NCBI GenBank assembly: GCA_903863845.1
Contig: CAIPDP010000123.1
Span: 1-57,020, forward strand
Reading direction: 5' to 3'
DNA from: an uncultured Mucilaginibacter sp.
GTDB taxonomy: Bacteria > Bacteroidota > Bacteroidia > Sphingobacteriales > Sphingobacteriaceae
Length of the DNA: 57,020 bases
Each line of letters begins with the position of its first letter. The stretch's first letter is position 1. The notes under the pieces are model-generated. The model was not told where the DNA came from. It was given only the letters and a program-made list of their open reading frames with translations, and made no database searches. Positions 14,996 through 37,066 of the stretch are shown in pieces. The position numbers were made by a program, and so were the translations under genes.

Positions 14996-16231
14996 ATGCA
15001 CCTTAAAAAACTGTTCAGACTTGGTATCATATTATTGATACCTTTTATACTTATTTTTTCACAATGCCACTCATCTAAAAGCACAGAAGATCCACGGGGC
15101 GATGCCTATGCCGGTTCGGCAACCTGTGTCAATTGCCACAAAAATATCTATAGTTCATACGTACATACGGCGCATTTCTTATCATCAGGACCGGCAGATA
15201 TCAATACGGTGCAGGGAAGTTTTGCTTTAGATAAGAACATCCAGCGATTCGATGCGCATACCCAGGTACGAATGGAAAAACGAAAAAGCGGCCTCTACCA
15301 GGTAACCTACAAGGATGGTAAAATAACGCAGTCGGACCGCTTTGACCTGTTTTTTGGTAGTGTAAAAGGCCAATCCTATGCCTATTGGTACGCAAATGAA
15401 CTATTCCAGCTACCTATATCCTATGTAGCCAACGCACATCAATGGATCAACAGTCCGGGTTATCAAAGCAATGAACCGGATTATGAGCGAATGATCACTT
15501 CGCAATGTCTTGGTTGTCACATGTCTTTTGCCAAATCACAAAAGGGTGCATTGCCATTATTTTCTGAAAATCCTGAAGGTTTTGCAAAGGATAGCATCAT
15601 TTATCCTATTGATTGCGAACGATGTCATGGTCCGGCGGCAGAACACGTTAAATTTCAAACTGAGAATCCCGAAATAAAAGAGGCGCACAACATTGCTACC
15701 TATAAATCGCTTACCCGCGACCAAAAAGTTAATATGTGCGCTGTATGCCATTCAGGCGCCAATAACGTGATGCTTAAGGCAACTTACCTGTTTAAGCCGG
15801 GCGACACCTTGAGTAAGTTTATGCGGGTAGTGCCATCAAATTTATCTGTAAACTATAAATCAATTGATGTTCATGGCGACCAGACAGCCTTATTGCAAAG
15901 CAGCAAATGTTATATCAACAGTAGCATGAGTTGTGCTACCTGCCATGATACGCACCAAACCCAAAGAGACTATACCCTGTTATTTGCTGCCAGATGCATG
16001 ACTTGCCATACAACAAGCAACAAATGTAAACTTAGCAACCAGCTTAATGCAGCACAGTTAAGTCAGAATTGCATTTCATGCCATATGCCTTCCTTTTCGT
16101 CAAAATTGATCATAGCTGGTGAATCAGGAGCATTGGTGCATACGCATCATATCACCGTTTATAAGGATGAGGCGCAAAAAGTATTAAACTGGCTGAAGGC
16201 TAATAATACCAAAGCTCTAGCAATCCACTGA
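14996..16231 (+). CDS. Seven-heme c-type cytochrome, cytochrome c554-like
   Basis: Extracytoplasmic electron-transfer protein. Seven CxxCH heme sites are present: CVNCH (44-48), CLGCH, CERCH, CAVCH, CATCH, CMTCH and CISCH. None is CxxCK, so it is not an NrfA nitrite reductase. The N-terminal hydrophobic segment ends at F-S-Q-C24, a non-standard lipobox; the protein is either a lipoprotein or cleaved nearby. The region with FFGSVKGQSYAYWY and the heme spacing resemble the cytochrome c554/c' group (PF13435). A standalone multiheme cytochrome is unusual beside SusCD genes. It converges with the VCBS/cytochrome gene at 15 bp, so the two cannot be one operon. Redox partner unknown. Confidence 0.88.
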   Translation: MHLKKLFRLGIILLIPFILIFSQCHSSKSTEDPRGDAYAGSATCVNCHKNIYSSYVHTAHFLSSGPADINTVQGSFALDKNIQRFDAHTQVRMEKRKSGLYQVTYKDGKITQSDRFDLFFGSVKGQSYAYWYANELFQLPISYVANAHQWINSPGYQSNEPDYERMITSQCLGCHMSFAKSQKGALPLFSENPEGFAKDSIIYPIDCERCHGPAAEHVKFQTENPEIKEAHNIATYKSLTRDQKVNMCAVCHSGANNVMLKATYLFKPGDTLSKFMRVVPSNLSVNYKSIDVHGDQTALLQSSKCYINSSMSCATCHDTHQTQRDYTLLFAARCMTCHTTSNKCKLSNQLNAAQLSQNCISCHMPSFSSKLIIAGESGALVHTHHITVYKDEAQKVLNWLKANNTKALAIH

Positions 16232-16246
16232 TAAGAAACCCGACTG

Positions 16247-17800
16247 TTATTTTTTAGTATGATTTTCCAGGATCACAAATGGCACATGCTGGTCCCAAAA
16301 TGGTTTTAATCCGTCCTGTATCAGCAAGCCGTCTGCATAATTACCTAAAATAATATCAGGCTTACCATCGTGATTTATATCGGCAACTGTCATATTCATC
16401 CAATGGCCATATTTGCTAACCGGAATTGCATGAGGCTTAAAGCTCATTGGTTTGTCCTGTTCAAAATAGATAAAACTTTCGGCAGGATTACCTTTCAGAT
16501 CGGCAAAAAATGATATTGCCGCTATGTCAAGATCGCCGTCGCCATCAAAATCAGCAGCAATAGCTTTTGTTGTTCCATTTATTGGGTAGTAGTAAGCCTG
16601 TTTAAAATTCCAATCGCCCTGGTTGGTGAAAATATACAGGCCGTGGTAAGGCTTCAAAATTCGCGAATCCTTGTAGTTATAGCCACAGGTGTAGATCAGG
16701 TCAAGTTTTCCATCATGATTGATATCAACCAATTGAAAACTGGATGAACCATACACAGCCGGGAAATTGATCAGGCTTTTGCCCGAAAAACCGCCCTTAT
16801 GGTTGTTGGTGTAAAGCCAAAGACCTTCTTCGCCTGAACCATATAATACCATCAGATCAGGCCAGCCATCATGATTAAAATCACCCACAATGGCCTGAAC
16901 AGCACCTGGTTTATCTGAAATATTCGATTGTGTAAAAGTGTGATCTGATTTTTGTTTCATCAGATAAACACCGCCTACAAAATGGCCCTGAGAAAGTATG
17001 ACATAATCAGTTAAACCATCTTTATTAAAATCACCAGCCAGCGCTTGAACCGGTCTGCCCAAATCTTCCTGTATTACAGAAGGCTTACTTCCAGCTGTTT
17101 TGCCATCCAGATCAAGGCTAAGCACTTTTCCGTTCGGAAAATCCATCGGAATGATCTGCCCGATACAAGAGAAAATGGCTTCATTTTGTCCGTTTATGCC
17201 TTTCAAAAAGGTGGCATCTACAGGAGCAGAAGGTAGTTCAGCAACAACGTGGGGTTTAAGGTTAGCATCCCATTCCGTCAATTTGGTGCTTACCAAATCG
17301 CTGGTATATAATTTACTGTTCAGGCTATCGTAAGCAACCATCGAAGTGTGCACTACCTTATCTTCAGCCTGGGGTTTACGTAAAGTAAAACCGGCCCAGT
17401 CATTCAATAATGGCTGAGGTTCTTTGATAGCAGGTAATTCATTTGGGGCCAGTTTATTAAAATAAGTCCTGATGATCAACCATTCATCTAATGAAACCCC
17501 ACCGGTATCGGTTGGCTTTTTATAATAATTTGTTTGGCTGAATGTTGATAAGGCCAGGTAGCGCGACATGGTAGGCAGCGTATGAAAATTCCATACATCT
17601 TTTGTCAACAGCTTTGGGTCAACCTCAGCATGGCATTTGGTACAATATTTTTGAACCAATACCTTTCCATCGGCTATTGTGTCGCCAGTGGACTGAAAAA
17701 CACTATTGCTTTTACATCCACTAAGTAACATGCTGGTAGTAACAATAGAAAAGAAAAGAATTCCAAAAAAGGCGTAAAGGCCAGTATTCCGTTTACTCAT
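16247..17800 (-). CDS. Lipoprotein with single c-heme motif and FG-GAP/VCBS beta-propeller
   Basis: Surface or periplasmic lipoprotein of 517 residues: lipobox LLSGC (C29), then one heme site C53-T-K-C-H57 in a small cytochrome-like segment. A seven-bladed FG-GAP/VCBS propeller follows, with calcium loops of the DxNxDGxxD kind (DFNKDGLTD, DFNHDGWPD, DINHDGKLD, DFDGDGDLD, DINHDGKPD). The reading to 17806 begins with TTG; the ATG at 17800 is used. It follows the haloperoxidase gene by 14 bp and ends a minus-strand run. The fused heme suggests electron transfer tied to whatever the propeller binds. Function not established; no homologue of known activity is recognised. Confidence 0.85.
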   Translation of the reverse strand: MSKRNTGLYAFFGILFFSIVTTSMLLSGCKSNSVFQSTGDTIADGKVLVQKYCTKCHAEVDPKLLTKDVWNFHTLPTMSRYLALSTFSQTNYYKKPTDTGGVSLDEWLIIRTYFNKLAPNELPAIKEPQPLLNDWAGFTLRKPQAEDKVVHTSMVAYDSLNSKLYTSDLVSTKLTEWDANLKPHVVAELPSAPVDATFLKGINGQNEAIFSCIGQIIPMDFPNGKVLSLDLDGKTAGSKPSVIQEDLGRPVQALAGDFNKDGLTDYVILSQGHFVGGVYLMKQKSDHTFTQSNISDKPGAVQAIVGDFNHDGWPDLMVLYGSGEEGLWLYTNNHKGGFSGKSLINFPAVYGSSSFQLVDINHDGKLDLIYTCGYNYKDSRILKPYHGLYIFTNQGDWNFKQAYYYPINGTTKAIAADFDGDGDLDIAAISFFADLKGNPAESFIYFEQDKPMSFKPHAIPVSKYGHWMNMTVADINHDGKPDIILGNYADGLLIQDGLKPFWDQHVPFVILENHTKK

Positions 17801-17814
17801 CGTCAATCAGTTTA

Positions 17815-19128
17815 TTATTTAGTAAGTTTTAAACGTTGCCAAATCAATTCACCCACCTGGTTACCCTGGTTGGCCCCGGTAAGGCTGCTGTTCAAATAAT
17901 GTATCCCACCATAAAACCTGCTCATTGCAGTCTCTTTGGCAGCATCTTTAAATGATTTAAAATCGCGCTGGAGGCCAATATACTTCAAATCGCTTGTATC
18001 ATGAAATGCGAAATTCTCTCCAAATTCATGGCTTAACACGGTTGCCGATGCAGCGCTAATGGTACTATGTCCGGCGGTATATTCCGGGAACGGTGGCGTT
18101 TGTAGCAACGGAAGCCAATTCTTTTCAATTTTATCATTGATAACCGTCACAGGCCGAACATAGGCATATTTATATTTTACTTCCCAGCAGGTAATAAAGC
18201 TTTCAAATAAAGCGATCGAAGTCAATGCATAGGCCTGGGCTGTTTTAATGCCATCAGCATGTGTTTGCCTGCTTGCAATGGTTGTGATACCGATCCAGTG
18301 TCCACCGGGTGTGATCTTTTTATCAGCAAACATCAGGTGACCATTGTGCACTACCACAAAAGGGTTATCATCCCAATACCGGGCAATTGTATCTTGTGTT
18401 TTAGTAAGATGCTTATTTTGATCATAAACAGCTTTGGCTGCCTTGTAAAAAACACTGGTTGTATCATCGCTGTAAGCCGGCGGTGGACCAGGCATAAAAA
18501 TAGTCGAAGAGTCGATCAGCAGTGTATGCATCTGCCCCCAGCAAAACTCTACACCATCCATGTAATCGGGTGGAGTAGGCCTCCATTTACCGGGTATATT
18601 GGTTCCTAAATATTTAGGTTTACCACGGGTTTGTGGGTAGTCATCAGTCATTGCACGGTTTAATACCGTTTTACCAATACGCTCCCCAAGATCTAATGAA
18701 CGACTATAAGTTGAATCGTCCAGAGCGTTCTTGTAACTATTATATACCAAATTCTCATACTTATTGAGAGTATCAACAGAGAACGTTACTTTGTGAGCGA
18801 CTGTAAAAAATGCTTTGGTAGCAGACAGTGCAAAATTATAGCTCTTACCGCTAACGGGCTCAGGCATTGCTGCAAAACCTTTTAACTGAGAAGTCAGTGA
18901 ATTATACTTCGGATCAGCATATTTCATCGCTTCATAGCTTGCCAGGTTGGTATACGCGTATATACGACTCGCGACAGGCGGTGTAAAAACATCGTAAATG
19001 ATCACATGAGTAAGGGCATCTTCGTTGGCATTCAACACGTCGGCATCTGCGGGTAAAGCGCTCTTGTGCTTGCATGAGGCGATGCAGGACAGCAAAGCAA
19101 CAGCAATGATGATTTTAAAGTACTTCAT
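17815..19128 (-). CDS. Vanadium-dependent haloperoxidase / PAP2-like lipoprotein
   Basis: 437 residues, lipobox IASC with C19, so exported and lipid-anchored. Vanadate/phosphate-binding residues fit the haloperoxidase/PAP2 pattern: K318-x6-R325-P326, T351-A-G-H354 and S403-R404-x5-H410 (FYGGIH). The PFPEYTAGHS stretch is characteristic of the bacterial haloperoxidase-like family, but Ala replaces the Ser usual in PSGH. Known members oxidise halides with H2O2 or act as acid phosphatases; which applies cannot be decided. It is sandwiched between two VCBS-propeller genes (9 bp and 14 bp gaps), so they are almost certainly co-transcribed. Confidence 0.87.
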   Translation of the reverse strand: MKYFKIIIAVALLSCIASCKHKSALPADADVLNANEDALTHVIIYDVFTPPVASRIYAYTNLASYEAMKYADPKYNSLTSQLKGFAAMPEPVSGKSYNFALSATKAFFTVAHKVTFSVDTLNKYENLVYNSYKNALDDSTYSRSLDLGERIGKTVLNRAMTDDYPQTRGKPKYLGTNIPGKWRPTPPDYMDGVEFCWGQMHTLLIDSSTIFMPGPPPAYSDDTTSVFYKAAKAVYDQNKHLTKTQDTIARYWDDNPFVVVHNGHLMFADKKITPGGHWIGITTIASRQTHADGIKTAQAYALTSIALFESFITCWEVKYKYAYVRPVTVINDKIEKNWLPLLQTPPFPEYTAGHSTISAASATVLSHEFGENFAFHDTSDLKYIGLQRDFKSFKDAAKETAMSRFYGGIHYLNSSLTGANQGNQVGELIWQRLKLTK

Positions 19129-19137
19129 GGTTTTAGG

Positions 19138-22100
19138 TTATTTAATCGTGATATTACGGGTTTGGCCATTATTGTCGGTAACTGCTACTGCTGCTATATT
19201 CCCATCAATATTTAAATAACGACCTGATTGTGATAAAAATGAATCTCCATAATAAAATTCCTGTTTGGTGATCTTGCCGTTCCTATATTTTATCAGAGCG
19301 TAAGCATCATTCGGTTGAATTTTAACCAGGCTGGTGCTTTTGTTCAATTCAAATATCTTCAAGGCATCACGGTTCTGGCTGGCAGCAAGCAGGTAATTGC
19401 CTTTAGCACCCAATACCTTAACCAGGGCTTTACCGTTACCCGGTATATAAATGCCACTTTGCAGTATCGTTTGGGGAGCAAAGCCTCCTTTGCCGTCGCC
19501 CTTTAGCATCAATCCGTTCAAAGCATCATATCGCCCTGTTGTAACGTCGGTACCATAATCGTTGCCGTTAATGATCACATCCAGGTTTCCATCGCCGTCA
19601 AAATCATCAACCACCATGCCACATAGTTCAGATACCTGGGCCTGCACCGGTAAAGGTATCATCTTAAATTTCCCATTCCCTTCATTGCGAAGGTACACAG
19701 ATGCTAAATTATTCACCTTTAACCTTTGAGCGCCTTTCCGCATTTCGGGTGTTATATATTCATCCATCGTGGCTGTAGCAAACAGTTTGTAATTTTGGTA
19801 TTTGATGCGGGTCATTAACATTTGCTTGATAACATCATCCCTGGTATTAACCGGAAATTCTTTCATTTTACCGTCCTGGTCTTTCAGGAATACCGATGGG
19901 AAAGCATCGTAACTGCCGTTATTATCAAAGTCTTTTGCAGTAATAAATACGGGATATTGATCACTGGCTTTATAAAAAGTGTTTAAACCCGTATTACCGA
20001 CTATATAATCAATTCGGCCGTTATGTTCAAAATCGCCCGCTACAATCGTGTTCCACCAACCTAACTGGCCGGCCACTCCGGATGCTGCAGTAACATTTTT
20101 AAATACGCCATGATCATTTTTAAGGAAAGTAACAGGCATCCACTCTCCCGCCATGATCAGGTCGGGCCAGCCGTCACCGTCAAAATCTGTAAATACAGCA
20201 TCGCACACCATGCCAATTTTGCTCAGGTCTTTTGCAACAGATGCAGTAACATCTGTAAATTTTACATGGCCATCTTTGGAGTCATTACGCAGGATGAAGC
20301 TCGAAACAGGTTTCGGATAACTTCCGGGATCAACTCTTCCCGAGACAAACAGATCTATTTTACCATCCTTATTATAATCAACCGCACGAACGCAAAGCTT
20401 GCTGGTGAAATTTTTAGGTAGTGCATCTTTTGCTTCCGTAAAATTACCTTTACCATCATTGATGTATAAACGATCCTGGTAATAGGGCGAATTGGCATCA
20501 TTTTCATACCCGCCGCTTGCAACATACAAATCGAGCTTTCCATCACCATTGGCATCAAATAGAAGCAGTCCTTCGTCTTTAAAATTCTCGTTGAAGTTTA
20601 CCTGGGGCAACAGGTTACGTTGGATAAATTTACCATCCTTCTGTTGTAAAAATACCTGTGAGGGATGTTTCGACGTTCCGCCAACTATAATATCATCCAG
20701 ACCATTTCCGTCGACATCACCTACTGCTAATCCTGGTGAATATTCGGATAATTTGTGTGGTAATAGCTTTTGAATATTGAAATCTACAAAGTCGATATCC
20801 TCATTTTTATAGCTAACACCGAGCATCCGGGTAACTTCTGCAAACAATGCTTTTTTATCGATCTCGGGTTGCTTAAAATCATAAGGCGAGGAAGCGTCTT
20901 TGATATCAACGTTCAGCGTCTGATCGGCTTTGACGTTGGTCAATATCTGCTTTTTAAAGTTCTGCCAGCGGATAACTACTGAATCTATCGTGGTAATTTT
21001 ACCCAATCCAAAATGCGCAATATTCTGTATGGTTGACAAATAGCCCCTGAAAGGCGTGTTTTCATAGACCTGGTGCTTGCCATTATCATAATAGATATCG
21101 GCCCAGGCACCTACCCCATCACGGTTATTTGCACCGCCGCGAAATTTGATATGCAGGTAATGGCTGTTACCCGGATCGCGGTCGCGAGCCGTATTGCGGT
21201 AGATCATGGCTTCATCATCAATATTATTAATGATCACATCCATCGCCCCGTCATTATCCAGATCGGCATAAACCGCACCATTCGAGAAGGTTGGCGCATT
21301 GAAACCCCAATTGTCGGTGACATCGTCAAACTGAAGATTGCCTTTATTTTTAAAAGCAAAATTTGGAATCTTAACCATGGGAATCTGGTCGAGCACCTGC
21401 TTCTTGCTGGCAATAAAATACGACTGCGCCCTGAAGTTCATAAAATCATGGTCCGTAACATCGCGCGGGTAACCGTTGGTAATGATCAGATCACGGTAAC
21501 CATCATTGTCAAAATCGGTAAGCAAAGGGCCCCAGCTCCAATCTGTTTGCGATATCCCGGCAAGGAAAGAAACTTCACTAAAAGCTGGCGCAGCAATTGA
21601 ATCATTTTGACCTAACCTGGGGCCCTGGTTCAACTGCAAAGTATTACGCGAATACTGGTATTGATAGTTGAACCGATCCATGTTTTGGAAGGCCTGGTAA
21701 TTATTTGGACTCATAAACATCTTTTTCCGGTAATTATCCGGTGGATTCATATCCAGTTCGAGAATATCAGCTAGTCCGTCATTATTAATATCTTCCACTT
21801 CCTGCCCCATCGCACTTAAAGAGGTGTGCTTAAAATACTCTTTTGACCGATCGGTAAATGTGCCATCGTGGTTATTGATATAGAGGATATTGTTTGGTAA
21901 AAAATCGTTGGTAACATAGATATCCTTCCAGCCATCCCGGTTAATATCAACCGTACTGGCAGCATGCCCGAATCCTTCGATCAATATACCCGCCTGTTTA
22001 GATACATCATGAAAAACGGGATGTTTTAAAACCGGGTCCCAATCGTTACGGTAAAGCCGGCCTGTGCTATGAGCCGAACCATCTTTCACAATTGGCTTAA

Positions 22101-22710
22101 ACAAACTTACGTTATCATTTTGATCGGCCTCGTTAACCGTAAGGTACATATCAAGATCACCATCGTTATCATAGTCGAAAAATGAAGCCATGGTAGAATG
22201 GACATTAATGTCAAGTCCGTATTCTTTAGCCATCTCCTTAAAATGTGGTACGCCATTCTTATCAGGCCCCTGGTTAATATATAAGAGGTTCCTTCTCTTT
22301 TTGGGATCGCCTAACAGGGTGTTACATACGTATATGTCAGGTAAACCATCATTATTAATGTCAACAACTGCTACACCACGACCCCAGCCACCTTCACCGC
22401 CTACACCTGCTTCCGTGGTAACATCTTCAAATTTCATGTTACCTTTATTGATATAAAGCCGGTTTGGTACCGCATTGCCTACAAAATAAATGTCTTGCAG
22501 TCCATCGCCGTTAAAATCACCAACACCTACACCACCGCCATTATAAATATTTAATTTATCTAAAGGATTGATGGAATCATTCTCAATGATGAGATTATTG
22601 AAGGTAACTCCTGAATGTGACGAAGGAATCTGTTCAAACAGCGTCTTTTTCTTACATGACGCCAATCCAAGCAGCAGTAGCGAGCAAAGGATGCAGCTGG
22701 TTAATCTCAT
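19138..22710 (-). CDS. ASPIC/UnbV and VCBS-repeat lipoprotein (CRTAC1-like)
   Basis: 1190-residue surface lipoprotein (GLASC, C19). About fourteen calcium-binding loops are seen, e.g. DFNGDGLQD (65-73), DINNDGLPD (117), DYDNDGDLD (179), DINRDGWKD (255), DLDNDGAMD (484) and later DVDGNGLDD and DFDGDGNLD, consistent with two beta-propellers. Between them residues 530-600 form an ASPIC/UnbV domain (NNRDGVGAWADI, RGYLSTIQNIAHFGLG, VVIRW). The architecture is common in Bacteroidota next to SusD genes but has no established biochemical role. It starts 88 bp after the second SusD gene and leads into the haloperoxidase gene after 9 bp. Confidence 0.9.
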   Translation of the reverse strand: MRLTSCILCSLLLLGLASCKKKTLFEQIPSSHSGVTFNNLIIENDSINPLDKLNIYNGGGVGVGDFNGDGLQDIYFVGNAVPNRLYINKGNMKFEDVTTEAGVGGEGGWGRGVAVVDINNDGLPDIYVCNTLLGDPKKRRNLLYINQGPDKNGVPHFKEMAKEYGLDINVHSTMASFFDYDNDGDLDMYLTVNEADQNDNVSLFKPIVKDGSAHSTGRLYRNDWDPVLKHPVFHDVSKQAGILIEGFGHAASTVDINRDGWKDIYVTNDFLPNNILYINNHDGTFTDRSKEYFKHTSLSAMGQEVEDINNDGLADILELDMNPPDNYRKKMFMSPNNYQAFQNMDRFNYQYQYSRNTLQLNQGPRLGQNDSIAAPAFSEVSFLAGISQTDWSWGPLLTDFDNDGYRDLIITNGYPRDVTDHDFMNFRAQSYFIASKKQVLDQIPMVKIPNFAFKNKGNLQFDDVTDNWGFNAPTFSNGAVYADLDNDGAMDVIINNIDDEAMIYRNTARDRDPGNSHYLHIKFRGGANNRDGVGAWADIYYDNGKHQVYENTPFRGYLSTIQNIAHFGLGKITTIDSVVIRWQNFKKQILTNVKADQTLNVDIKDASSPYDFKQPEIDKKALFAEVTRMLGVSYKNEDIDFVDFNIQKLLPHKLSEYSPGLAVGDVDGNGLDDIIVGGTSKHPSQVFLQQKDGKFIQRNLLPQVNFNENFKDEGLLLFDANGDGKLDLYVASGGYENDANSPYYQDRLYINDGKGNFTEAKDALPKNFTSKLCVRAVDYNKDGKIDLFVSGRVDPGSYPKPVSSFILRNDSKDGHVKFTDVTASVAKDLSKIGMVCDAVFTDFDGDGWPDLIMAGEWMPVTFLKNDHGVFKNVTAASGVAGQLGWWNTIVAGDFEHNGRIDYIVGNTGLNTFYKASDQYPVFITAKDFDNNGSYDAFPSVFLKDQDGKMKEFPVNTRDDVIKQMLMTRIKYQNYKLFATATMDEYITPEMRKGAQRLKVNNLASVYLRNEGNGKFKMIPLPVQAQVSELCGMVVDDFDGDGNLDVIINGNDYGTDVTTGRYDALNGLMLKGDGKGGFAPQTILQSGIYIPGNGKALVKVLGAKGNYLLAASQNRDALKIFELNKSTSLVKIQPNDAYALIKYRNGKITKQEFYYGDSFLSQSGRYLNIDGNIAAVAVTDNNGQTRNITIK

Positions 22711-22798
22711 TAAACGTGTAAAATTGGTGAGCTAAAATAAATAATTAAATGGTGAAAAGATAAATATAAAGGCATTTATTTATATGATGTGATCAACA

Positions 22799-24751
22799 TC
22801 ACGGATAGTTTGGGTTTTGCTTCAAAGCACCATGCTCTGCACTGATCTGAGGTATCGGAATAGGATAAATTTCGTTTCTGCCTTGAGTAAATACAGCGCC
22901 CTGCAATACTGTATTGGCAAAAAAGAGCTGTGGATAAGATGTATTGGTTTTTATATAAGCATTTAGTGTCATGGCCATATACCCACTTGGAGCAGGTCCG
23001 CCATATAGTCCATCGTAACGCCGGAGATCAAAGAAGCGTTGTCCTTCCATAGCCAACTCCAATCTCCGTTCATACCAAACAGCCGAGCGGGCATAAGCCT
23101 GCCCATTGGTAACAAAACTTGTATTTGCGAAATCGCCATACAAACCAATCTGGTAATTAACTGCTGGCTGGTTATTGTCAACAATGGGTTTGGCGGCATC
23201 CGCTACGCCTCCCGTCAAACCATAGCTAACCAAACGACCATAAACCCAGCCTGCTTTGTTCTGCATACGTGCACGAACCTGATTTACCAGACTTTGGGCC
23301 ATATTAAGGTTTCCGGTTTCAACATTTGCTTCGGCAGCCCACAATAATACATCCGAATAGCGAATCATATTATAATTCATAGCCGATGCCTGCCCGGGTG
23401 CCCAACCGCCGTAGGTCTGACTTTCAGTTGCAGCCTCGCTTTGCCGGTAAACATTCTTCATATTAATAAAGGGCCCGGCGTCACCCTGCGCCCTTGCCCA
23501 ACTCGAACCAGGCTCTATCCCATAATCAAGGAATGGAATTCCACGCCGTCCTGCTGTCCAATCCAATCGAGGATCAACAGGAGTTGTCGTATCTGGAAAA
23601 TAAGAGGCGTCGGTAGACAATACCCCCTGGTCAGATTTTAAAACTGAAATATTACCCTGGTCGCCGTTGTGTGTTTCATCCGCTGCATTGATAGCCGCCC
23701 CATTATAGTCATATGCCCCCAATGAACCATCAGCATTAATAAAGGGTACGCCTGTTGCGGGGTTTACTTTAAACGCATTAACCAGGCTAAAGGAGGGTTG
23801 ATAAAAACCACAACATCCGGTTGGACCAGCAGCCGGGAAATTAAGGATATCACCCGGATTGCCATTTTGCCCGCCAGAACCATCATTAACAGCCATTTGT
23901 ATCGCAAAAACTGCCTCGTTACTGTTTTTTATTGCTGCATCAAAGTTATTATTGAAATTAGCGTTAAGGGCATACTTATTTCCTGAGGATGTTTTCCCAT
24001 TGGCGATTAAATCGTTCAGAGCAGTTAAAGCGGCTGTATACTTGTGTTCAAACATCAGCGTTTTTGCAAGGAAAGCCTCAGCAGTATAACTATTTGCACG
24101 ACCCACCTGCGCCTGGCTACCGGGTAGTGCGGCCTGGGCAGCTGTAAAATCCGCTTCTATCTTATCCGAGATCGGGCCGGGGTTTGCTACATTATAATTG
24201 CCGGCAGAATAAGTAACAGTCTCGTCGACATAAGGGACATTCAGGAAAATTTTGGAGAGTTCCAGTTCAAAAACCCCACGTATAAACTTTGCTTCACCAG
24301 CAACCCCGGCAGCATAAGCCGTTGTTACTGACCCATCTTTTACCAATGGTATTTCACGTAAAACATCGTTGGCCCGTTGGATCCCGTCATAACAAACAGT
24401 CCACTTGTCATTCAAATACCCATTAGAACCATCTATACTATGGTTCATAATAGCAGCCGCTGGCGATTGGTCGGTAGCATTCGAGCCTTTATTGGCGTCA
24501 TCTGATGCAATACCTCCAAAATGCCAATTACTTGGCGAAGCGCCCCAGGTATCACCAGATGTAATGTTCCCGTTCATTTCCAAAGCTGCATAGGCACCAA
24601 TCAGCAAGCCATCAAGCCCCGCCTTGGTAGCCAAAACAGCAGGATTTAAAAAACCCGTAACAGGCTGGTTCAAAAACTTTTTGCACGAAAGGCAGATCGT
24701 CATAAAAACTAAGGCTGCACCGATAAGAGATTTGAGGGATGAGATTTTCAT
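22799..24751 (-). CDS. SusD/RagB-family outer-membrane lipoprotein, second copy
   Basis: Surface lipoprotein (C23 in ICLSC) of the SusD nutrient-binding family, 650 residues, with TPR-like N-terminal half and the usual C-terminal end (RRLELAMEGQRFFDLRRYD, NEIYPIPIPQI). By eye it is about three-quarters or more identical to the neighbouring SusD at 24886-26775. The main difference is an extra stretch of roughly 25 residues after VNAFKV (NPATGVPFINADG ... QGNISVLK). Both carry an odd vicinal-cysteine motif T-G-C-C-G-F. No SusC partner of its own is present, so it probably shares the single SusC. It lies behind a strong terminator, so its expression should be lower than or separate from copy one. 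Confidence 0.93.
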   Translation of the reverse strand: MKISSLKSLIGAALVFMTICLSCKKFLNQPVTGFLNPAVLATKAGLDGLLIGAYAALEMNGNITSGDTWGASPSNWHFGGIASDDANKGSNATDQSPAAAIMNHSIDGSNGYLNDKWTVCYDGIQRANDVLREIPLVKDGSVTTAYAAGVAGEAKFIRGVFELELSKIFLNVPYVDETVTYSAGNYNVANPGPISDKIEADFTAAQAALPGSQAQVGRANSYTAEAFLAKTLMFEHKYTAALTALNDLIANGKTSSGNKYALNANFNNNFDAAIKNSNEAVFAIQMAVNDGSGGQNGNPGDILNFPAAGPTGCCGFYQPSFSLVNAFKVNPATGVPFINADGSLGAYDYNGAAINAADETHNGDQGNISVLKSDQGVLSTDASYFPDTTTPVDPRLDWTAGRRGIPFLDYGIEPGSSWARAQGDAGPFINMKNVYRQSEAATESQTYGGWAPGQASAMNYNMIRYSDVLLWAAEANVETGNLNMAQSLVNQVRARMQNKAGWVYGRLVSYGLTGGVADAAKPIVDNNQPAVNYQIGLYGDFANTSFVTNGQAYARSAVWYERRLELAMEGQRFFDLRRYDGLYGGPAPSGYMAMTLNAYIKTNTSYPQLFFANTVLQGAVFTQGRNEIYPIPIPQISAEHGALKQNPNYP

Positions 24752-24826
24752 ATTCTCAGGTCAAAATACTTGAAATAGAACTATTGCTATGGTGTAAACA
24801 ATTGGGGATACAATACTCTAATATAC

Positions 24827-24860
24827 AAAAAAGGGGGAAGATTATGAAATCTTCCCCCTT
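24827..24860 (-). terminator. Strong intrinsic terminator between the two SusD genes
   Basis: Perfect 12-bp stem AAGGGGGAAGAT / ATCTTCCCCCTT (24831-24842 and 24849-24860) with a 6-nt loop, followed on the minus strand by a T-run. It lies 25 bp past the stop of the first SusD gene and some 75 bp before the start of the second. It splits a series that otherwise looks like one operon. Confidence 0.9.
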
Positions 24861-24885
24861 GTAATTTATTAAACTCAACCTAGCA

Positions 24886-26775
24886 TCATGGATAGTTAGG
24901 GTTTTGTTTTAAAGCACCATGCTCAGCACTGATCTGTGGAGTAGGTACAGGATAGATTTCGTTTCTACCCTGAGTAAATTTAGCACCCTGCAATACAGTG
25001 TTTGCAAAGAATGCCGGAGGGTAAGAAGTGTTTTTTGTGATATAAGCATTCAATGTAGTAGCCATATAACCACTTGCAGCAGGACCGCCGAATAAGCCGT
25101 CATAACGCTGTAAGTCGAAGAAACGGTGACCTTCCATTGCAAGTTCTAATCTTCTTTCCATCCAAACAGCGTTACGAGCATAAGCCACGCCATTTGAAAC
25201 AAAACCTGTAGCAGCACCGCCAGTACCGGCAGCACCGTACAAACCGATTGAATAATTTGCTGCAGGAAGCGTATTATCAACGATTGGCTTGCCAGCATCA
25301 GGATTACCACCAGTTAAACCATAACCAGTTAAACGACCATAAACCCAACCAGCTTTAACTTGCATACGAGCACGCACCTGATTTACTAAATTTTCAGCGG
25401 TCTGTAAGTTACCCAATTCAACGTTAGCTTCAGCAGCCCACAACAGAACATCAGAATAACGGATCATGTTAAAGTTCATCGCTGAAGCCTGACCAGGAGC
25501 CCAACCACCATAGCTTTGGCTTTGGGTAGCTGCTTCGCTCAAACGGTAAACGTTTTTCATGTTGATGTACGGACCAGCATCGCCCTGAGCACGAGCCCAG
25601 CTTGAACCTGCTTCGATACCATAATCAAGGAATGGAATACCTCTACGGCCAGCGGTCCAATCAATACGAGGGTCAACCGGAGTAACAATGTCCGGGAAAT
25701 AAGTTGCATCAGAAGAAGCAACACCCTGGTCAGATTGCAAAGGAGTATTGTCAAATGATCCATCCAGTAAAGGAAGACCATTGGCATCAACTTTAAATGC
25801 ATTAACCATGGTGAACGATGGCTGATAGAAACCGCAGCAGCCAGTAGGACCAGCAGCAGGGAAGTTCAACACATCACCAGGGTTACCATTATTACCACCT
25901 GATCCGTCATTCACTGCCATCTGGATGGCAAAAACTGCTTCATTGCTGTTTTTGATAGCAGCATCAAAGTTGTTATTGAAATTAGGATTAAGTACATATT
26001 TATTACCTGATGAAGTAACACCGTTAGTCATCAAATCAGTCAAAGCAGTTAATGCAGCAGCATACTTGTGTTCAAACATTAATGTTTTAGCAAGAAATGC
26101 CTCAGCAGCATATTTGTTAGCACGACCAACTTGTGCCTGAGAAGCAGGCAGCGCAGCCTGAGCAGCAGTAAAGTCAGCTTCAACTTTGTCCCAGATCGGA
26201 CCTGGGTTACCAACGTTGTAGTTACCGGCAGAATAGGTAACCGTTTCATCTACATAAGGCACATTGCGAAAGATCTTGGATAGTTCCAATTCAAACACTC
26301 CGCGTACAAATTTGGCTTCACCGGTAACTTCTGCAGCATATGCAGCACTGATTGAACCATCTTTTACAAGCGGGATTTCACGCAATACGTCATTGGCACG
26401 TTGAATACCAGCATAACATACTGTCCATTTCTGATTTACATAGCTATTAGATCCATCCAGGCTGTGATTCATAATTGAAGCAGCATCTGGCTGGTCAGTA
26501 GCATTCGAACCTTTGTTGGCATCATCAGAAGCGATACCACCAAAATGCCAGTTGCTTGGTGAAGCACCCCAGGTACCTCCAACTGTAATGTTCGAATTCA
26601 TTTCAAGCGCGGAGTAGGCACCAATGAGTAATCCATCCACACCTGCTTTTGTAGCAAGTACAGCGGGGTTCAAAGAACCTGTCACGGGCTGGTTTAAAAA
26701 TTTCTTACACGAATAAGAGAGCGTAAGAAAAATCAGCGCGGCCGGCATCATAAATTTAAAAACTGATTTTTTCAT
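24886..26775 (-). CDS. SusD/RagB-family outer-membrane lipoprotein, first copy
   Basis: Surface glycan- or nutrient-binding lipoprotein that caps the SusC channel. 629 residues, signal with C23 (SYSC), N-terminal KKFLNQPVTGSLNP typical of the family, TPR helices, and C-terminal RRLELAMEGHRFFDLQRYD and NEIYPVPTPQI. It follows susC by 40 bp and is the natural partner of that transporter. It also contains T-G-C-C-G-F, as in the second copy. The ligand cannot be inferred: the neighbours are a haloperoxidase and cytochromes rather than glycosidases. The gene ends at the terminator described just downstream. Confidence 0.95.
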   Translation of the reverse strand: MKKSVFKFMMPAALIFLTLSYSCKKFLNQPVTGSLNPAVLATKAGVDGLLIGAYSALEMNSNITVGGTWGASPSNWHFGGIASDDANKGSNATDQPDAASIMNHSLDGSNSYVNQKWTVCYAGIQRANDVLREIPLVKDGSISAAYAAEVTGEAKFVRGVFELELSKIFRNVPYVDETVTYSAGNYNVGNPGPIWDKVEADFTAAQAALPASQAQVGRANKYAAEAFLAKTLMFEHKYAAALTALTDLMTNGVTSSGNKYVLNPNFNNNFDAAIKNSNEAVFAIQMAVNDGSGGNNGNPGDVLNFPAAGPTGCCGFYQPSFTMVNAFKVDANGLPLLDGSFDNTPLQSDQGVASSDATYFPDIVTPVDPRIDWTAGRRGIPFLDYGIEAGSSWARAQGDAGPYINMKNVYRLSEAATQSQSYGGWAPGQASAMNFNMIRYSDVLLWAAEANVELGNLQTAENLVNQVRARMQVKAGWVYGRLTGYGLTGGNPDAGKPIVDNTLPAANYSIGLYGAAGTGGAATGFVSNGVAYARNAVWMERRLELAMEGHRFFDLQRYDGLFGGPAASGYMATTLNAYITKNTSYPPAFFANTVLQGAKFTQGRNEIYPVPTPQISAEHGALKQNPNYP

Positions 26776-26815
26776 AATTTTAAAATTTTAAAATTCTGTA
26801 TTTTATATCTCTTCT

Positions 26816-29800
26816 TTAGAAACCTAAGTTAAGACCAAATATCCATTGTCTCTGGTTGTTAGGATAGTTACCCAAGTCAACACCAAATGCGTTTGATGAT
26901 CCGCCACCTGGAGGAAGCTCTGGATCAAGACCAGTGTATTTAGTAATTGTGAATGGATTAGTAGCCTGTACATAAAGACGCAATTTAGATACTCCAATTG
27001 TTTTTAACAACTGAGGATCGAAATTGTAACCCAACTGTAACACACGCACTTTCAGATATGAAGCCGGAGATACGTAGAATGAACTGGTTTGGCTTGTACC
27101 CATAGTAGTGTTGTCACTTTCAATAGGCAGAATAGGATTAGTTACACCAGGAGCACCGTATGATTTAGTTAACGCATCAACTGATTTTGCACCGTTGAAT
27201 GAGCTGTAGAAATCGGTCCAGTATAAAGTGTAGTTATAAACCTGGTTACCATATGAGCCATACAATACAGCTGCGATATCCCAGCGCTTGTAAGAAGCGC
27301 TCAGGTTGATACCATAAGTGAAGTCAGGGTTAGGATTACCTATGAAGGTACGGTCGGCGTCTGTGATCTGACCATCACCGTTTACGTCAGCATATTTGAA
27401 TGATCCTGCAACTGCACCTGCATATTTAGGCACGTTAGCATTAGCTATATCAGCAGCGCTGTAGAAACCGGTAACTTTGTAACCATAGAATTCGCCAATC
27501 GGATGACCAACTTCTTCACGAACGATAGGGTTAACACGGCTGCCTACATCATCAAAGTAGGTACCAGGAATGTTAGTGATCAAGTTAGTGTACTTGGTAA
27601 AGTTGACACCTGCATTGTAACGGAAATCGCTACCAGCAGAACCATGGTAAGTAATGGCGATATCAATACCTTTGTTTTGAACGTCACCAATGTTAACTAC
27701 TGGTGGGTTAGATGCCGGACCACCAAGAGTTCCTGGCAAGCTTGCACCAAATAACAAACCACTGATTGATTTCTTGTAGATATCGAATACTACTTCCCAA
27801 TGGTTAAACAAAGAAGCATCAAAACCAAAGTTTACAGTTTTGTCTTTTTCCCAGCTGGTGTGGGTGTTACCATCAAATGCAGCATAGAAACCTTGAGTAA
27901 TGTTACCATTACCATTGATAGCATAATAACCATTACCGAAAGAAGAACCGAAATAGTTGTATGCGTTAGCTCCCGGTACGTTAGAGTTGTTACCGGCAAT
28001 ACCGTAGCTACCACGAATTTTCAAGTCATTGATCCAGGTCACAGATTTCAGGAAGTCTTCCTGAGAAATTCTCCATGCCAATGAAATTGATGGGAAGGTA
28101 CCCCACTGGTTGCCTGGATAAAAAGCAGAGAAACCGTCGCGACGTACAGTAGCACGCAAGATATAACGGTCATTATAAGTATAGTCTAAGCTACCAAAGA
28201 AAGACTGGGTTCCAGTAGGCTGGTAAGCGTAGCTATAGTTAGTGATGTTTTGTGTAGCATTGCTCAGGTCAGCATAAGCTGGAGCGGTAGAGAACAAGTT
28301 TGTACCACCACCGCCTACTTGACGGCCACCTGTTTTTCTTTGTTCGAAACCTGCTAACACCTGGATGTTGTGTTTGCCAAATGCCTGATTGTATTTAATG
28401 GTATTGGTCCAGTTATACGAGCTGCTGTAATCAGCACCTTCATAAACTGAGTTAGCACCAGTGTGAGCCTCATAATCCTGATATTGATTCAGGCCGATAC
28501 CATAATAATAGTTATTGGTAATGATACCACCCATGCTGATACGTGCAGTGAAGTGTTTCAGGAAGTCAACTTCACCAAAAACATTACCACTGATGTTCCA
28601 GGTTTTGCTGTAGTCGTTCAGGTATTGAGCAACCTGAGCAACAGGGTTTGAAGCGTTACCAAGAGGCTCGCCACCCGGACCGTCATAACCACCACCGTAG
28701 TGAATGCCAGAAATATCATAAACCGGTATCTGAGGGAACTCACGATAAGTTTCAGAGATAGGGTCACCTTCGTTCTGGTTAGAAATACCACCTTTTCCGT
28801 TTGGTGTTTGCAGGTAGTTAAAATATCCGCTTTCACCTACACGAATACCATGAGCGATATTGAAGGTTGTATTGATACGAGCTTCGTAACGCTGCAGGTA
28901 AGTATTTAGCATGGTACCATTTTGATCAAGATACCCTAAAGACATGTAATAACTATTCTTGTCGTTTGCGCCGCTGGCAGTAACTGTATGATATTGCTCA
29001 GGAGCTGATTTGAATAATTCGTGGAACCAATCTGTACCAGCCTGGTTGAATTGCTGGATCAGGAAGTCGTTTCCAGGGTTATTTGCGTCAAAGTTGTAAT
29101 TCGACAACAAATTACCTACAGCTGGAGCACCGGCACCACCAGCAACACCGGCAACACCACCCGGACCTTGATAACCGTAGGTTGGTACGGTGCCTGGGCC
29201 ACCTGGGTAAATTTTAGCTTCAGCGGTAGCATCACCTACTAAGTAAGCCAATTCTGACTGCTGAGCAGGGGTACCGATATTGAATACGTTGCCGCCTTTT
29301 GGTGACTGTGTACCATAATAAGCATCATAAGTCAAAGTTGATTGACCTTGTTTACCATGCTTGGTAGTTACGATAACAACACCGTTACCACCCGATACAC
29401 CGTAAATAGCTGTAGCACCAGCGTCTTTCAACACCTGGATACTTTCGATGTCATTTGGGTTAAGGTCACCCATTGAACCTACCTGCACACCGTCGATAAC
29501 GTACAGTGGCTGAGAGTTACCAAAGTTAGAGATACCACGGATGTAAACTGAGCTTGCTCCACCCGGCTGGCCTGAAGTTACTACAGTAACACCAGCTGCC
29601 TGGCCTTGCAGAATCTGATCAGTACTACCACCGGTAGGGATCTTTTTAGCATCGGTCAGGTCAACTACGGCTACTGAACCGGCAATGTCCTTTTTACGCT
29701 GAGACGTGTAACCTGTAACAACAACTTCGTTTAAGCTGCTGTTGGTTACTTCCAACGTAATGGTACCAAGGTCTGAACTGGTTACAGTAACTTGTTTAGG

Positions 29801-30052
29801 CTGGTAGCCGATGTAGGAAACTACTAATACGTAGCCTACTTTGCCACTCAGCACAAAGTTACCGTTAACGTCAGTCACAACGCCTGTGTTTGTACCTTTA
29901 ATTTTCACGGTAGCGCCTATTACAGGTTGCTTATCATCTGCTCCGATGACTTTACCTGTAATCTTTGTTTGGGCCGTAACTACCATCGAGGAAAGGGTGC
30001 ATAGTACTATCAAGCACATCGTCCTTCCTTTTAGAAGTAAACTTTTAAACAT
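26816..30052 (-). CDS. SusC/RagA-family TonB-linked outer-membrane transporter
   Basis: 1078-residue TonB-dependent channel importing a ligand handed over by SusD. After the signal peptide (LIVLCTLSSMVVTAQ), a carboxypeptidase-regulatory-like beta-sandwich spans about residues 30-110. The SusC signature region LNEVVVTGYTSQRKKDIAGSV, the plug (YVIDGVQVGSMGDLNPNDIES, LKDAGATAIYG) and a 22-strand barrel ending in F follow. No FecI/FecR-type N-terminal signalling extension is visible. It is the first gene of the locus, behind an AT-rich 750-bp spacer. Only one SusC is present for two SusD genes. Confidence 0.96.
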   Translation of the reverse strand: MFKSLLLKGRTMCLIVLCTLSSMVVTAQTKITGKVIGADDKQPVIGATVKIKGTNTGVVTDVNGNFVLSGKVGYVLVVSYIGYQPKQVTVTSSDLGTITLEVTNSSLNEVVVTGYTSQRKKDIAGSVAVVDLTDAKKIPTGGSTDQILQGQAAGVTVVTSGQPGGASSVYIRGISNFGNSQPLYVIDGVQVGSMGDLNPNDIESIQVLKDAGATAIYGVSGGNGVVIVTTKHGKQGQSTLTYDAYYGTQSPKGGNVFNIGTPAQQSELAYLVGDATAEAKIYPGGPGTVPTYGYQGPGGVAGVAGGAGAPAVGNLLSNYNFDANNPGNDFLIQQFNQAGTDWFHELFKSAPEQYHTVTASGANDKNSYYMSLGYLDQNGTMLNTYLQRYEARINTTFNIAHGIRVGESGYFNYLQTPNGKGGISNQNEGDPISETYREFPQIPVYDISGIHYGGGYDGPGGEPLGNASNPVAQVAQYLNDYSKTWNISGNVFGEVDFLKHFTARISMGGIITNNYYYGIGLNQYQDYEAHTGANSVYEGADYSSSYNWTNTIKYNQAFGKHNIQVLAGFEQRKTGGRQVGGGGTNLFSTAPAYADLSNATQNITNYSYAYQPTGTQSFFGSLDYTYNDRYILRATVRRDGFSAFYPGNQWGTFPSISLAWRISQEDFLKSVTWINDLKIRGSYGIAGNNSNVPGANAYNYFGSSFGNGYYAINGNGNITQGFYAAFDGNTHTSWEKDKTVNFGFDASLFNHWEVVFDIYKKSISGLLFGASLPGTLGGPASNPPVVNIGDVQNKGIDIAITYHGSAGSDFRYNAGVNFTKYTNLITNIPGTYFDDVGSRVNPIVREEVGHPIGEFYGYKVTGFYSAADIANANVPKYAGAVAGSFKYADVNGDGQITDADRTFIGNPNPDFTYGINLSASYKRWDIAAVLYGSYGNQVYNYTLYWTDFYSSFNGAKSVDALTKSYGAPGVTNPILPIESDNTTMGTSQTSSFYVSPASYLKVRVLQLGYNFDPQLLKTIGVSKLRLYVQATNPFTITKYTGLDPELPPGGGSSNAFGVDLGNYPNNQRQWIFGLNLGF

Positions 30053-36347: not shown

Positions 36348-37061
36348 ATGAAAACAAACCACGCCCGCAAGGCTCTTTACCTGGCTATCACCTTTGCATT
36401 ATCTAGCTTTTGCTTTATCGCATCCGCACAGGACAGTATCCCCAAACCACCAAAACTGGATGAAAAAGGATGGCGCCAATTATTTAATGGCAAAGATCTG
36501 GACGGTTGGAAAATGGTAGGCCCGGGAAAACGTTATGTAGAGAACGGTGTTACCGGAAGTCACGGTGGTATGGGACTATTGTACTGGAGCAAAGAAAAGT
36601 TTAGCAATTGCAAGATCCGCGTAGTTTATCGGATGCAAAAGGCAAATAGTAACTCGGGTGTTTTTATCCGGATACCATTAGAGCCCCGCGAACCATGGAT
36701 GCCTGTATTTTATGGCTATGAAGTGCAGATCGATAACCATCCGGAAACTTCTGGTGAAGACGAATATCATGTAACTGGTACCCTTTATTCATTAACCAAA
36801 CCGCTCGCAAAACCCGGTAAACCCGGCCCGGAGTGGAATGTTATGGAGATCACCCTCGATGGCTTACGTACAATCGTAACCGTAAACGGGCAAAAAGTTA
36901 CCGATTATACCGAAGGCCAACCAACCCCCGAACGTAAATTTGATTTCGAACCTTTCCGCGGTCCGCGGCCGCTTGCAGGCTACATCGGTCTGCAAAATCA
37001 TGGCGACGATGATATTGTTTTCTTTAAAGAAGTAGCTGTAAAACCACTTCATAAAAAATAA
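36348..37061 (+). CDS. DUF1080 / 3-keto-disaccharide hydrolase family protein
   Basis: Secreted 237-residue protein, signal peptide ending FIASAQ. LamG-like jelly-roll domain of PF06439 with hallmark WRQLFNGKDLDGWKMVG, NSGVFIRIP, EVQIDNH and the C-terminal GYIGLQNHGDDDIVFFKEV. Members hydrolyse 3-keto-glycosides, lyase-like, after an oxidoreductase has oxidised the sugar C3. The next gene, 5 bp downstream, is a Gfo/Idh/MocA oxidoreductase, exactly that partner class. Which glycoside is attacked is unknown. Confidence 0.9.
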   Translation: MKTNHARKALYLAITFALSSFCFIASAQDSIPKPPKLDEKGWRQLFNGKDLDGWKMVGPGKRYVENGVTGSHGGMGLLYWSKEKFSNCKIRVVYRMQKANSNSGVFIRIPLEPREPWMPVFYGYEVQIDNHPETSGEDEYHVTGTLYSLTKPLAKPGKPGPEWNVMEITLDGLRTIVTVNGQKVTDYTEGQPTPERKFDFEPFRGPRPLAGYIGLQNHGDDDIVFFKEVAVKPLHKK

Positions 37062-37066
37062 TAGCC

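Follow-up and report, generated by a model that had tools for sequence, protein, structure and literature searches.

A conserved pairing of a CRTAC1-like double-propeller protein with a vanadium haloperoxidase-like lipoprotein, frequently accompanied by SusCD importers in Bacteroidota

Here, we describe a six-gene locus from an uncultured Mucilaginibacter sp. and the conserved gene pair at its core. The locus lies on the minus strand of contig CAIPDP010000123.1, whose 57,020 nucleotides we refer to throughout as the window, and encodes a SusC transporter, two SusD lipoproteins (SusD1 and SusD2), a double-propeller ASPIC/UnbV lipoprotein (ASPIC2), a vanadium haloperoxidase-like lipoprotein and a lipoprotein that joins a c-type heme domain to a propeller (HemeProp). 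ASPIC2 and the haloperoxidase form the core, as judged from the counts of their pairing and from pairs that occur without SusC and SusD (together, SusCD), and SusCD is a frequent, exchangeable addition. Each of these families is already known, and the combination is what appears new; no description of it was found in the open-licence literature searched. A preliminary description of the DNA, made from its letters alone, had placed the six genes on one strand with the last three only 9-14 bp apart. Both points were confirmed: all six open reading frames were found at 16247-30052, their families were confirmed by profile models, and the recomputed gaps are 9 bp between ASPIC2 and the haloperoxidase and 14 bp between the haloperoxidase and HemeProp, the latter measured to the ATG at 17800.

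The pairing was examined in two sets of genomes. Named genomes were scanned for haloperoxidase loci and the best 80 of 142 matches were kept; a same-strand ASPIC2 gene is no more than 4 kb away in 69 of these 80 loci and no more than 300 bp away in 56, where the median gap between the two genes is 11.5 bp. The second set consisted of 198 genomes drawn from the class, with 51 haloperoxidase places, and the neighbourhoods fetched cover all of these apart from the window's own place, one cut by a contig end (G151:C136) and the six weakest. Divided at 240 bits, a threshold set by eye from a gap in the scores, they fall into subfamily A, where 26 of the 30 haloperoxidases have a same-strand ASPIC2 at most 4 kb away (18 within 300 bp), and subfamily B, where this holds for 1 of 13 (Fisher p 1.4e-6, with copies and genomes treated as independent). 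That single subfamily-B row, L121 (219 bits), sits on a long branch on the A side of the tree. Counted by genome and by eye, ASPIC2 matches occur in 24/24 genomes with a place of at least 240 bits and in 1/8 with weaker places only; in most genomes this scoring took in only the top three ASPIC2 candidates, and the locus counts come from the fetched DNA. In G243 (2 contigs), each of the four haloperoxidases is accompanied by a same-strand ASPIC2 at most 1.4 kb away, and upstream of this ASPIC2 three of the four have a PF07980 SusD (by eye).

The pair is commonly part of a longer run of genes. Among the 57 loci with at least 6.5 kb of upstream sequence, ASPIC2 stands in the same-strand run in 51 and not in the run in 6, and SusC, SusD, ASPIC2 and the haloperoxidase form one same-strand run in 41; a further 6 of the 57 have ASPIC2 present with SusC on the opposite strand. 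Eleven of the 80 named loci are without ASPIC2 within 4 kb, five of which (L004, L016, L029, L036 and L078) have less than 3.4 kb of upstream sequence and the others (L012, L022, L058, L072, L075 and L077) more. The misses of the class-wide draw are L097, L106 (ASPIC2 7.3 kb off, on the opposite strand), L110 and L116 (1.2 kb of upstream sequence). Haloperoxidase identities correlate with those of ASPIC2 (rho 0.467, n=60, 0/500 permutations) more strongly than with those of SusD (rho 0.188, n=46, 6/500 permutations) or SusC; the correlations, which share organism phylogeny and differ in n, suggest co-inheritance of the haloperoxidase and ASPIC2 but fall short of proof. The conserved module itself is well supported. 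Co-occurrence in other genomes, on which the preliminary description had staked its proposal, was found in the form of a conserved and widespread pairing; the six-family module that it had drawn keeps its ASPIC2-haloperoxidase core, with outer members that are less constant: SusCD is absent from some loci, SusD2 is a local duplication and HemeProp is present in 28 of the 80 named loci. The haloperoxidase family, searched at E 1e-75, reaches five copies per genome (G236 and G281). One contig filed under a Comamonas metagenome-assembled genome (L067) carries Bacteroidota-like ASPIC2, haloperoxidase and GMC genes, which is probably a binning error.

The enzyme of the window was identified by its homology to a solved structure and not by its PAP2 match, which falls below the Pfam cut-off (25.3 versus 27.2 bits). 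A phmmer search against solved structures aligned residues 5-434 of its 437 with 4CIT from Zobellia galactanivorans (E 1.4e-117), and 185 of the 427 aligned residues are identical (43.3%). 4CIT was named a vanadium-dependent haloperoxidase by its depositors, and we take it to be the Zobellia enzyme of iodide specificity. The homology to this iodoperoxidase (4CIT/4USZ) is full length and includes the pocket residues Trp, Lys, Arg, Phe, Gly, His, Arg and His, which in the 107 aligned subfamily-A rows are kept in 106, 107, 107, 107, 101, 107, 107 and 107 rows, respectively. Presumably these are the vanadate-site Lys, Arg and Gly, the acid-base His and a further vanadate-site Arg and His, with Trp and Phe in the second shell; on the same assumption, the motifs KYKYAYVRP, FPEYTAGHS and SRFYGGIH hold the equivalents of K353/R360, Ser402 and R490/H496 of the fungal enzyme. 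The window protein keeps all of them and deviates solely at the Ser of the PSGH loop, the equivalent of Ser402, whose side chain we take to contact vanadate. This position is Ser in 95 of the 107 rows, Ala in 9, Cys in 2 and Ile in 1, and it is Ala in the window, unlike in 4CIT. In a quick tree of 121 rows, made with no mixture model, the ten Ala rows (the window included) fall on one side of a branch with a Shimodaira-Hasegawa-like approximate likelihood ratio test (SH-aLRT) value of 99, and the truncated protein of L007 also has Ala; the replacement seems to have arisen once, within Mucilaginibacter-type loci of the window's clade. Because of this replacement, we regard the window protein as a putative homolog of vanadium haloperoxidases and not as a proven vanadium enzyme. 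Its activity as a haloperoxidase rather than a phosphatase is a prediction, as are its substrate and halide. The label of haloperoxidase-type lipoprotein that it had been given at the outset was both borne out and sharpened, from a PAP2-like fold to homology with a solved vanadium haloperoxidase. The closest relative of 4CIT among the loci examined (67.6%) is in L102, where it belongs to a SusD-ASPIC2-ASPIC2-haloperoxidase run. As a separate observation, the haloperoxidases of sister subfamily B (L123-L134, about 165-220 bits) have no adjoining ASPIC2, and in L130, L132 and L133 Ile, Glu and Asn replace the vanadate Lys, Arg and His.

The partner, ASPIC2, has an AlphaFold model with a mean predicted local distance difference test (pLDDT) score of 91.9. 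Residues 22-605 superpose on mouse CRTAC1 (9etn; Z 37.0, root mean square deviation 2.5 over 468 residues, 21% identity), which a sequence profile search also returns (E 6.1e-30), and the stretch from 618 to about 1126 aligns by fold with single propellers. ASPIC2 thus has an N-terminal half made of a CRTAC1-like propeller plus ASPIC/UnbV domain and a C-terminal half with an added second propeller. The order of propeller and ASPIC domain is shared with CRTAC1, whereas the second propeller and C-terminal extension (about 618-1190), the lipobox and the bacterial origin set ASPIC2 apart. FG-GAP repeats are known calcium binders, and many Asp residues of the FG-GAP loops are invariant in 46 aligned ASPIC2 rows; ASPIC2 is predicted to be a Ca2+-dependent extracellular binding or scaffold protein. 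We considered whether it is a partner specific to the haloperoxidase and rejected this, as 8 of the 33 genomes with ASPIC2 in the class-wide draw (G008, G035, G053, G067, G121, G136, G191 and G196) do not belong to the 32 in which the haloperoxidase was matched at E 1e-30. ASPIC2 copies that lack a haloperoxidase precede varied genes. In one such place in a genus relative (L176/L196, contig 25 of G281), SusC, SusD, a multiheme cytochrome and ASPIC2 precede a pair of 3-keto-disaccharide hydrolases that flank a CxxCH protein, and the stretch read contains no haloperoxidase.

A second recurrent feature is found between the importer and the enzymes. At 33 of the 43 SusD-ASPIC2 junctions in the named loci, a terminator-like hairpin of at least 10 pairs occurs within 130 nt past the SusD stop; the median stem is 14, the median start is 24 nt past the stop and the sequences differ between loci. 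Counting the gaps alone, hairpins are present in 31 of 43; 100 dinucleotide shuffles gave 0.1 on average and never more than 1, and among other same-strand gaps 15 of 160 have one. A comparison in two members of the genus, covering 40 of the 43 SusDs listed for them (44 rows, one SusD being split in two) and using a fixed 130 nt after the stop, found the hairpin at all 5 SusD-ASPIC2 junctions and not at 31 of the 35 other SusDs (5/5 versus 4/35, p 1.9e-4). Four of five further direct junctions also have it (L175, L180, L181 and L184). As L175 and L184 have no haloperoxidase match nearby, the hairpin tracks the SusD-ASPIC2 boundary and not the haloperoxidase. Most simply, it would set importer expression above enzyme expression, and the locus would probably have two expression levels. 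The hairpin at 24831-24860, together with its counterparts at the other junctions, weakens the idea that the whole span is one simple transcript and makes it doubtful. The same scan of the window found no hairpin in the 130 nt that follow SusD2, ASPIC2 or the haloperoxidase. Our claim depends on the junction counts and the shuffle control and not on terminator-like matches by a looser rule, which are near chance in the window (16 found, 14.0 expected); promoter-like matches (46 found, 45.5 expected) are uninformative, and a TAnnTT[TA]G box precedes ASPIC2 in only 14 of 43 gaps.

The hairpin of the window follows SusD1, and SusD2 is a local duplicate of that gene. The source genome is Mucilaginibacter-like and its nearest named record is L001, whose haloperoxidase is 92% identical. 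There, the hairpin after SusD1 is near-identical to that of the window, and DNA at L001:5363-5745, between SusD1 and ASPIC2, matches the end of SusD2, which we read as the probable remnant of a lost second SusD copy.

HemeProp is a more variable member. The heme-attachment motif CxxCH is kept in 37/37 homologs of at least 200 bits, and the lipobox Cys, both heme Cys, the His and the Met of an LPxM motif are invariant in a 34-row alignment; this Met lies 21 residues after the heme His. The predicted model (pLDDT 88.3) was compared by fold over residues 135-517, so that the heme domain is hardly covered, and the best match of the propeller is aldos-2-ulose dehydratase (Z 30.9 over 352 residues), with LGI1 and integrins at about 27. 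The propeller fold is shared with that enzyme at 12% identity, whereas the c-heme domain is particular to HemeProp; the fungal dehydratase (4a7k/4a7y) presumably carries further domains in its place. A role as a sugar lyase of this type was considered and not adopted, the likeness being of fold only, at this low identity, and absent from the sequence-profile list. Relative to the haloperoxidase of the named loci, HemeProp is adjacent before it in 9 cases, adjacent after it in 14 and non-adjacent in 13, consistent with recruitment on more than one occasion. Across 91 genomes from the family, HemeProp matches are next to a haloperoxidase, or separated from it by a single gene, in 12 of 15 close cases (at least 430 bits) and 2 of 10 weaker cases (by eye). 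HemeProp and GMC oxidoreductase genes never share a locus (28 and 13 of 80, 0 both; Fisher p 0.003), which lineage alone may explain. The multiheme cytochrome convergent with HemeProp in the window is an accessory, lineage-specific gene; homologs stand beside HemeProp in L001, L006, L010 and L095, and in line between SusD and ASPIC2 in L176.

Glycosidases are frequent companions of these loci. Within up to 10 kb on either side of the 80 named loci, the glycoside hydrolase (GH) clusters, each named from one representative, are GH3 (21 loci), GH30 (11), GH2 (9), GH92 (7) and GH20 (7), and any of the five is found in 43; L109 has a GH29 gene. The preliminary description had counted no glycosidase inside the unit, which holds for the window's six genes by profile search and fails for relatives, where a GH65 gene lies between ASPIC2 and the haloperoxidase in L099 and in a second place in the window's own genome (L085). 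Together with the 3-keto-disaccharide hydrolases of L176/L196, these glycosidases favour a ligand that would be glycan- or glycoside-linked over a purely inorganic one. Two kinds of neighbour were considered as exported sources of peroxide and rejected by eye: the flavin amine oxidase near the window's locus, which has an NAD-binding match from residue 8 and a start with no signal peptide, and the GMC oxidoreductases of relatives, whose starts also have no signal peptide.

We propose that the locus couples an oxidative step at the outer surface to SusCD uptake, a chain to which, taken whole, we give a probability of roughly 0.4. SusC and SusD would capture a ligand, perhaps glycan-linked or aromatic, and import it, while the CRTAC1-like double propeller would hold the substrate or scaffold a complex. 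The lipid-anchored haloperoxidase-type enzyme would use peroxide on a halide, or on the ligand directly, at the surface, either ahead of uptake or as it proceeds. HemeProp and the multiheme cytochrome, which lie beside it in the lineage of the window, would most simply serve as electron carriers or peroxide sinks, and the hairpin after SusD would let the importer exceed the oxidative lipoproteins in amount.

Several points weigh against this proposal. Haloperoxidase and SusC identities are weakly correlated (rho 0.141, n=47, 12/500 permutations), so that the importer, and perhaps the ligand too, would have been exchanged between loci, and pairs without SusCD have UvrD or PBP/RodA genes upstream (L111, L120 and L113). 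PAP2-fold phosphatases share the same active-site residues, and the Ser-to-Ala replacement might make vanadate bind less tightly. Inspection of the locus by eye revealed no exported source of peroxide, and the lipoprotein signals were assigned solely with a simple motif. The hairpin is missing from 10 of the 43 named junctions and from a fifth direct junction, L179; in the window it precedes the duplicate SusD2, with none between SusD2 and ASPIC2, which would put SusD2 on the low-expression side.

The shared active site also gives rise to the strongest, if unlikely, alternative, a surface phosphatase that would strip phosphate, for example from phosphorylated glycans, before SusCD uptake, with vanadate irrelevant. 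That the vanadate and phosphate sites are identical in the superfamily would suit it, as would the Ala of the window's clade, the PAP2 identity of the weak Pfam match and the glycosidases beside more than half of the named loci; the depositors' name for 4CIT, the near-complete conservation of the pocket Trp and Phe, which we take to be haloperoxidase-site residues, and the c-heme partners, which suit redox better, all speak against it.

Halogen scavenging is quite unlikely as an explanation. Iodide or bromide would be converted to hypohalous acid, and SusCD would take up the halogenated product or iodine, in a way resembling the iodine uptake reported for Arenibacter C-21. The calcium-binding FG-GAP repeats are in its favour, whereas soil and fresh water are poor in iodide, and the up to five copies per genome and the varied glycosidases suggest different ligands and not one element. 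Iodine uptake by Arenibacter C-21 needs glucose, oxygen and calcium, and a peroxide-generating system substitutes for glucose, as PMC5064120 recounts from its authors' earlier work; a haloperoxidase is proposed there, with glucose oxidase as the peroxide source. The C-21 genome has at least five homologs of the Zobellia iodoperoxidase 4USZ, 39 SusD-family proteins and at least 28 c-type cytochrome genes, and the paper draws no link between these genes and SusCD and does not describe the gene neighbourhood of the iodoperoxidase homologs (PMC5064120). One Zobellia iodoperoxidase is reported to be upregulated on a brown alga (PMC9296495), and this and the iodine uptake of Arenibacter keep an iodine-related role among the rivals.

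Defence or signal quenching has only a slim chance of being correct: hypohalite formed at the surface would kill competitors or inactivate signals, the propeller would keep the enzyme there and SusCD would be a passenger, which accords with the pairs lacking SusCD and with the weak SusC correlation, and is opposed by the 41 of 57 loci in which same-strand SusC and SusD genes lie upstream. Chance neighbourhood of separate genes in a Sus-rich genome, an idea prompted by the 20, 24 and 67 PF07980 matches of three genus relatives, is very improbable and disfavoured by the pairing contrast between subfamilies (26/30 versus 1/13), the 9-14 bp gaps and the mere six PF07980 matches of the window's own genome (G000).

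SusCD loci are mostly read as serving glycan uptake and then hydrolysis. The present locus shares with such polysaccharide utilisation loci a SusC-SusD pair followed by lipoproteins and a nearby GH3 gene, and departs from them in having six genes with no glycosidase and oxidative-type proteins instead. A class-wide link to a peroxidase-type enzyme and CRTAC1-like proteins would add oxidative surface chemistry to the SusCD picture, could supply a genetic context for the Zobellia and Arenibacter iodoperoxidases and could name candidate enzymes for the natural halogenation of organic matter, while the hairpin offers a directly testable rule by which importer and enzymes might be set at different levels. 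The broadest form of our proposal, which we advance tentatively and consider somewhat unlikely, is that loci across Bacteroidota use ASPIC2 and a vanadium-peroxidase-type lipoprotein, with c-heme lipoproteins in some lineages, to oxidise or halogenate a surface ligand for SusCD, the importer being made at a higher level through the hairpin; if so, some of the halogenated organic matter in soils could come from such loci, a source so far overlooked. In the open-licence literature, narrow searches found no paper joining UnbV with SusD or with haloperoxidase, none was found joining haloperoxidase with Mucilaginibacter, and PMC5064120 was the only one found to contain haloperoxidase and SusD together as whole words.

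The features of the locus are listed in Table 1.

Table 1. Features of the window's locus, from the importer to the convergent cytochrome, followed by sequence motifs
Feature	Position	Strand	Basis
SusC/RagA TonB-dependent outer-membrane transporter	26816..30052	-	TIGR04056, 779.6 bits; Plug and CarbopepD_reg_2 domains
SusD1 lipoprotein	24886..26775	-	PF07980, 130.4 bits
Terminator-like hairpin, 13 pairs, T-rich tail, in the SusD1/SusD2 gap	24831..24860	-	hairpin scan
SusD2, tandem duplicate of SusD1	22799..24751	-	PF07980, 121.5 bits; 79.4% identical to SusD1
ASPIC2 lipoprotein, 1190 residues, two propellers and ASPIC/UnbV	19138..22710	-	FG-GAP_3; UnbV_ASPIC, 67.9 bits; structure matches
Vanadium haloperoxidase-like lipoprotein	17815..19128	-	phmmer to 4CIT; pocket residues
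HemeProp lipoprotein, mono-heme c domain and FG-GAP propeller	16247..17806 (ATG at 17800)	-	FG-GAP_3, 118.5 bits; CxxCH
Convergent multiheme c-type cytochrome lipoprotein, 7 CxxCH	14996..16231	+	Cytochrome_C554, 34.1 bits
KYKYAYVRP, vanadate-site Lys and Arg	18151..18177	-	alignment
FPEYTAGHS, phosphate/vanadate loop, Ser to Ala at the fungal Ser402 position	18064..18090	-	alignment
SRFYGGIH, vanadate-site Arg and His	17899..17922	-	alignment
CTKCH, heme-c attachment motif	17630..17644	-	homolog alignment
LPTM with invariant Met, candidate second heme ligand	17567-17578	-	homolog alignment

SusC has Plug and CarbopepD domains and adjoins a SusD partner, as expected of a SusCD pair, and the remaining gaps are 40 bp between SusC and SusD1, 134 bp between SusD1 and SusD2 and 88 bp between SusD2 and ASPIC2. 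SusC is preceded on its own strand, at a distance of 804 bp, by a GH3 beta-glucosidase gene (BglX model). Past HemeProp come the convergent multiheme cytochrome, 15 bp away, a GH2 exo-glucosaminidase-like gene and the flavin amine oxidase gene. Three of the six PF07980 matches of the genome are in ASPIC2 loci, in the window and on contig 165. The end of contig 165 carries SusD-ASPIC2 (L181) and the start of contig 4 carries ASPIC2-GH65-haloperoxidase (L085), and the two may be parts of a single second locus that the assembly broke up. Elsewhere in the window, a 3-keto-disaccharide hydrolase gene and then a GFO/IDH/MocA oxidoreductase gene (36348-38581, plus strand) follow an alpha-amylase gene at 34354 and possibly belong to a 3-keto-glycoside pathway.

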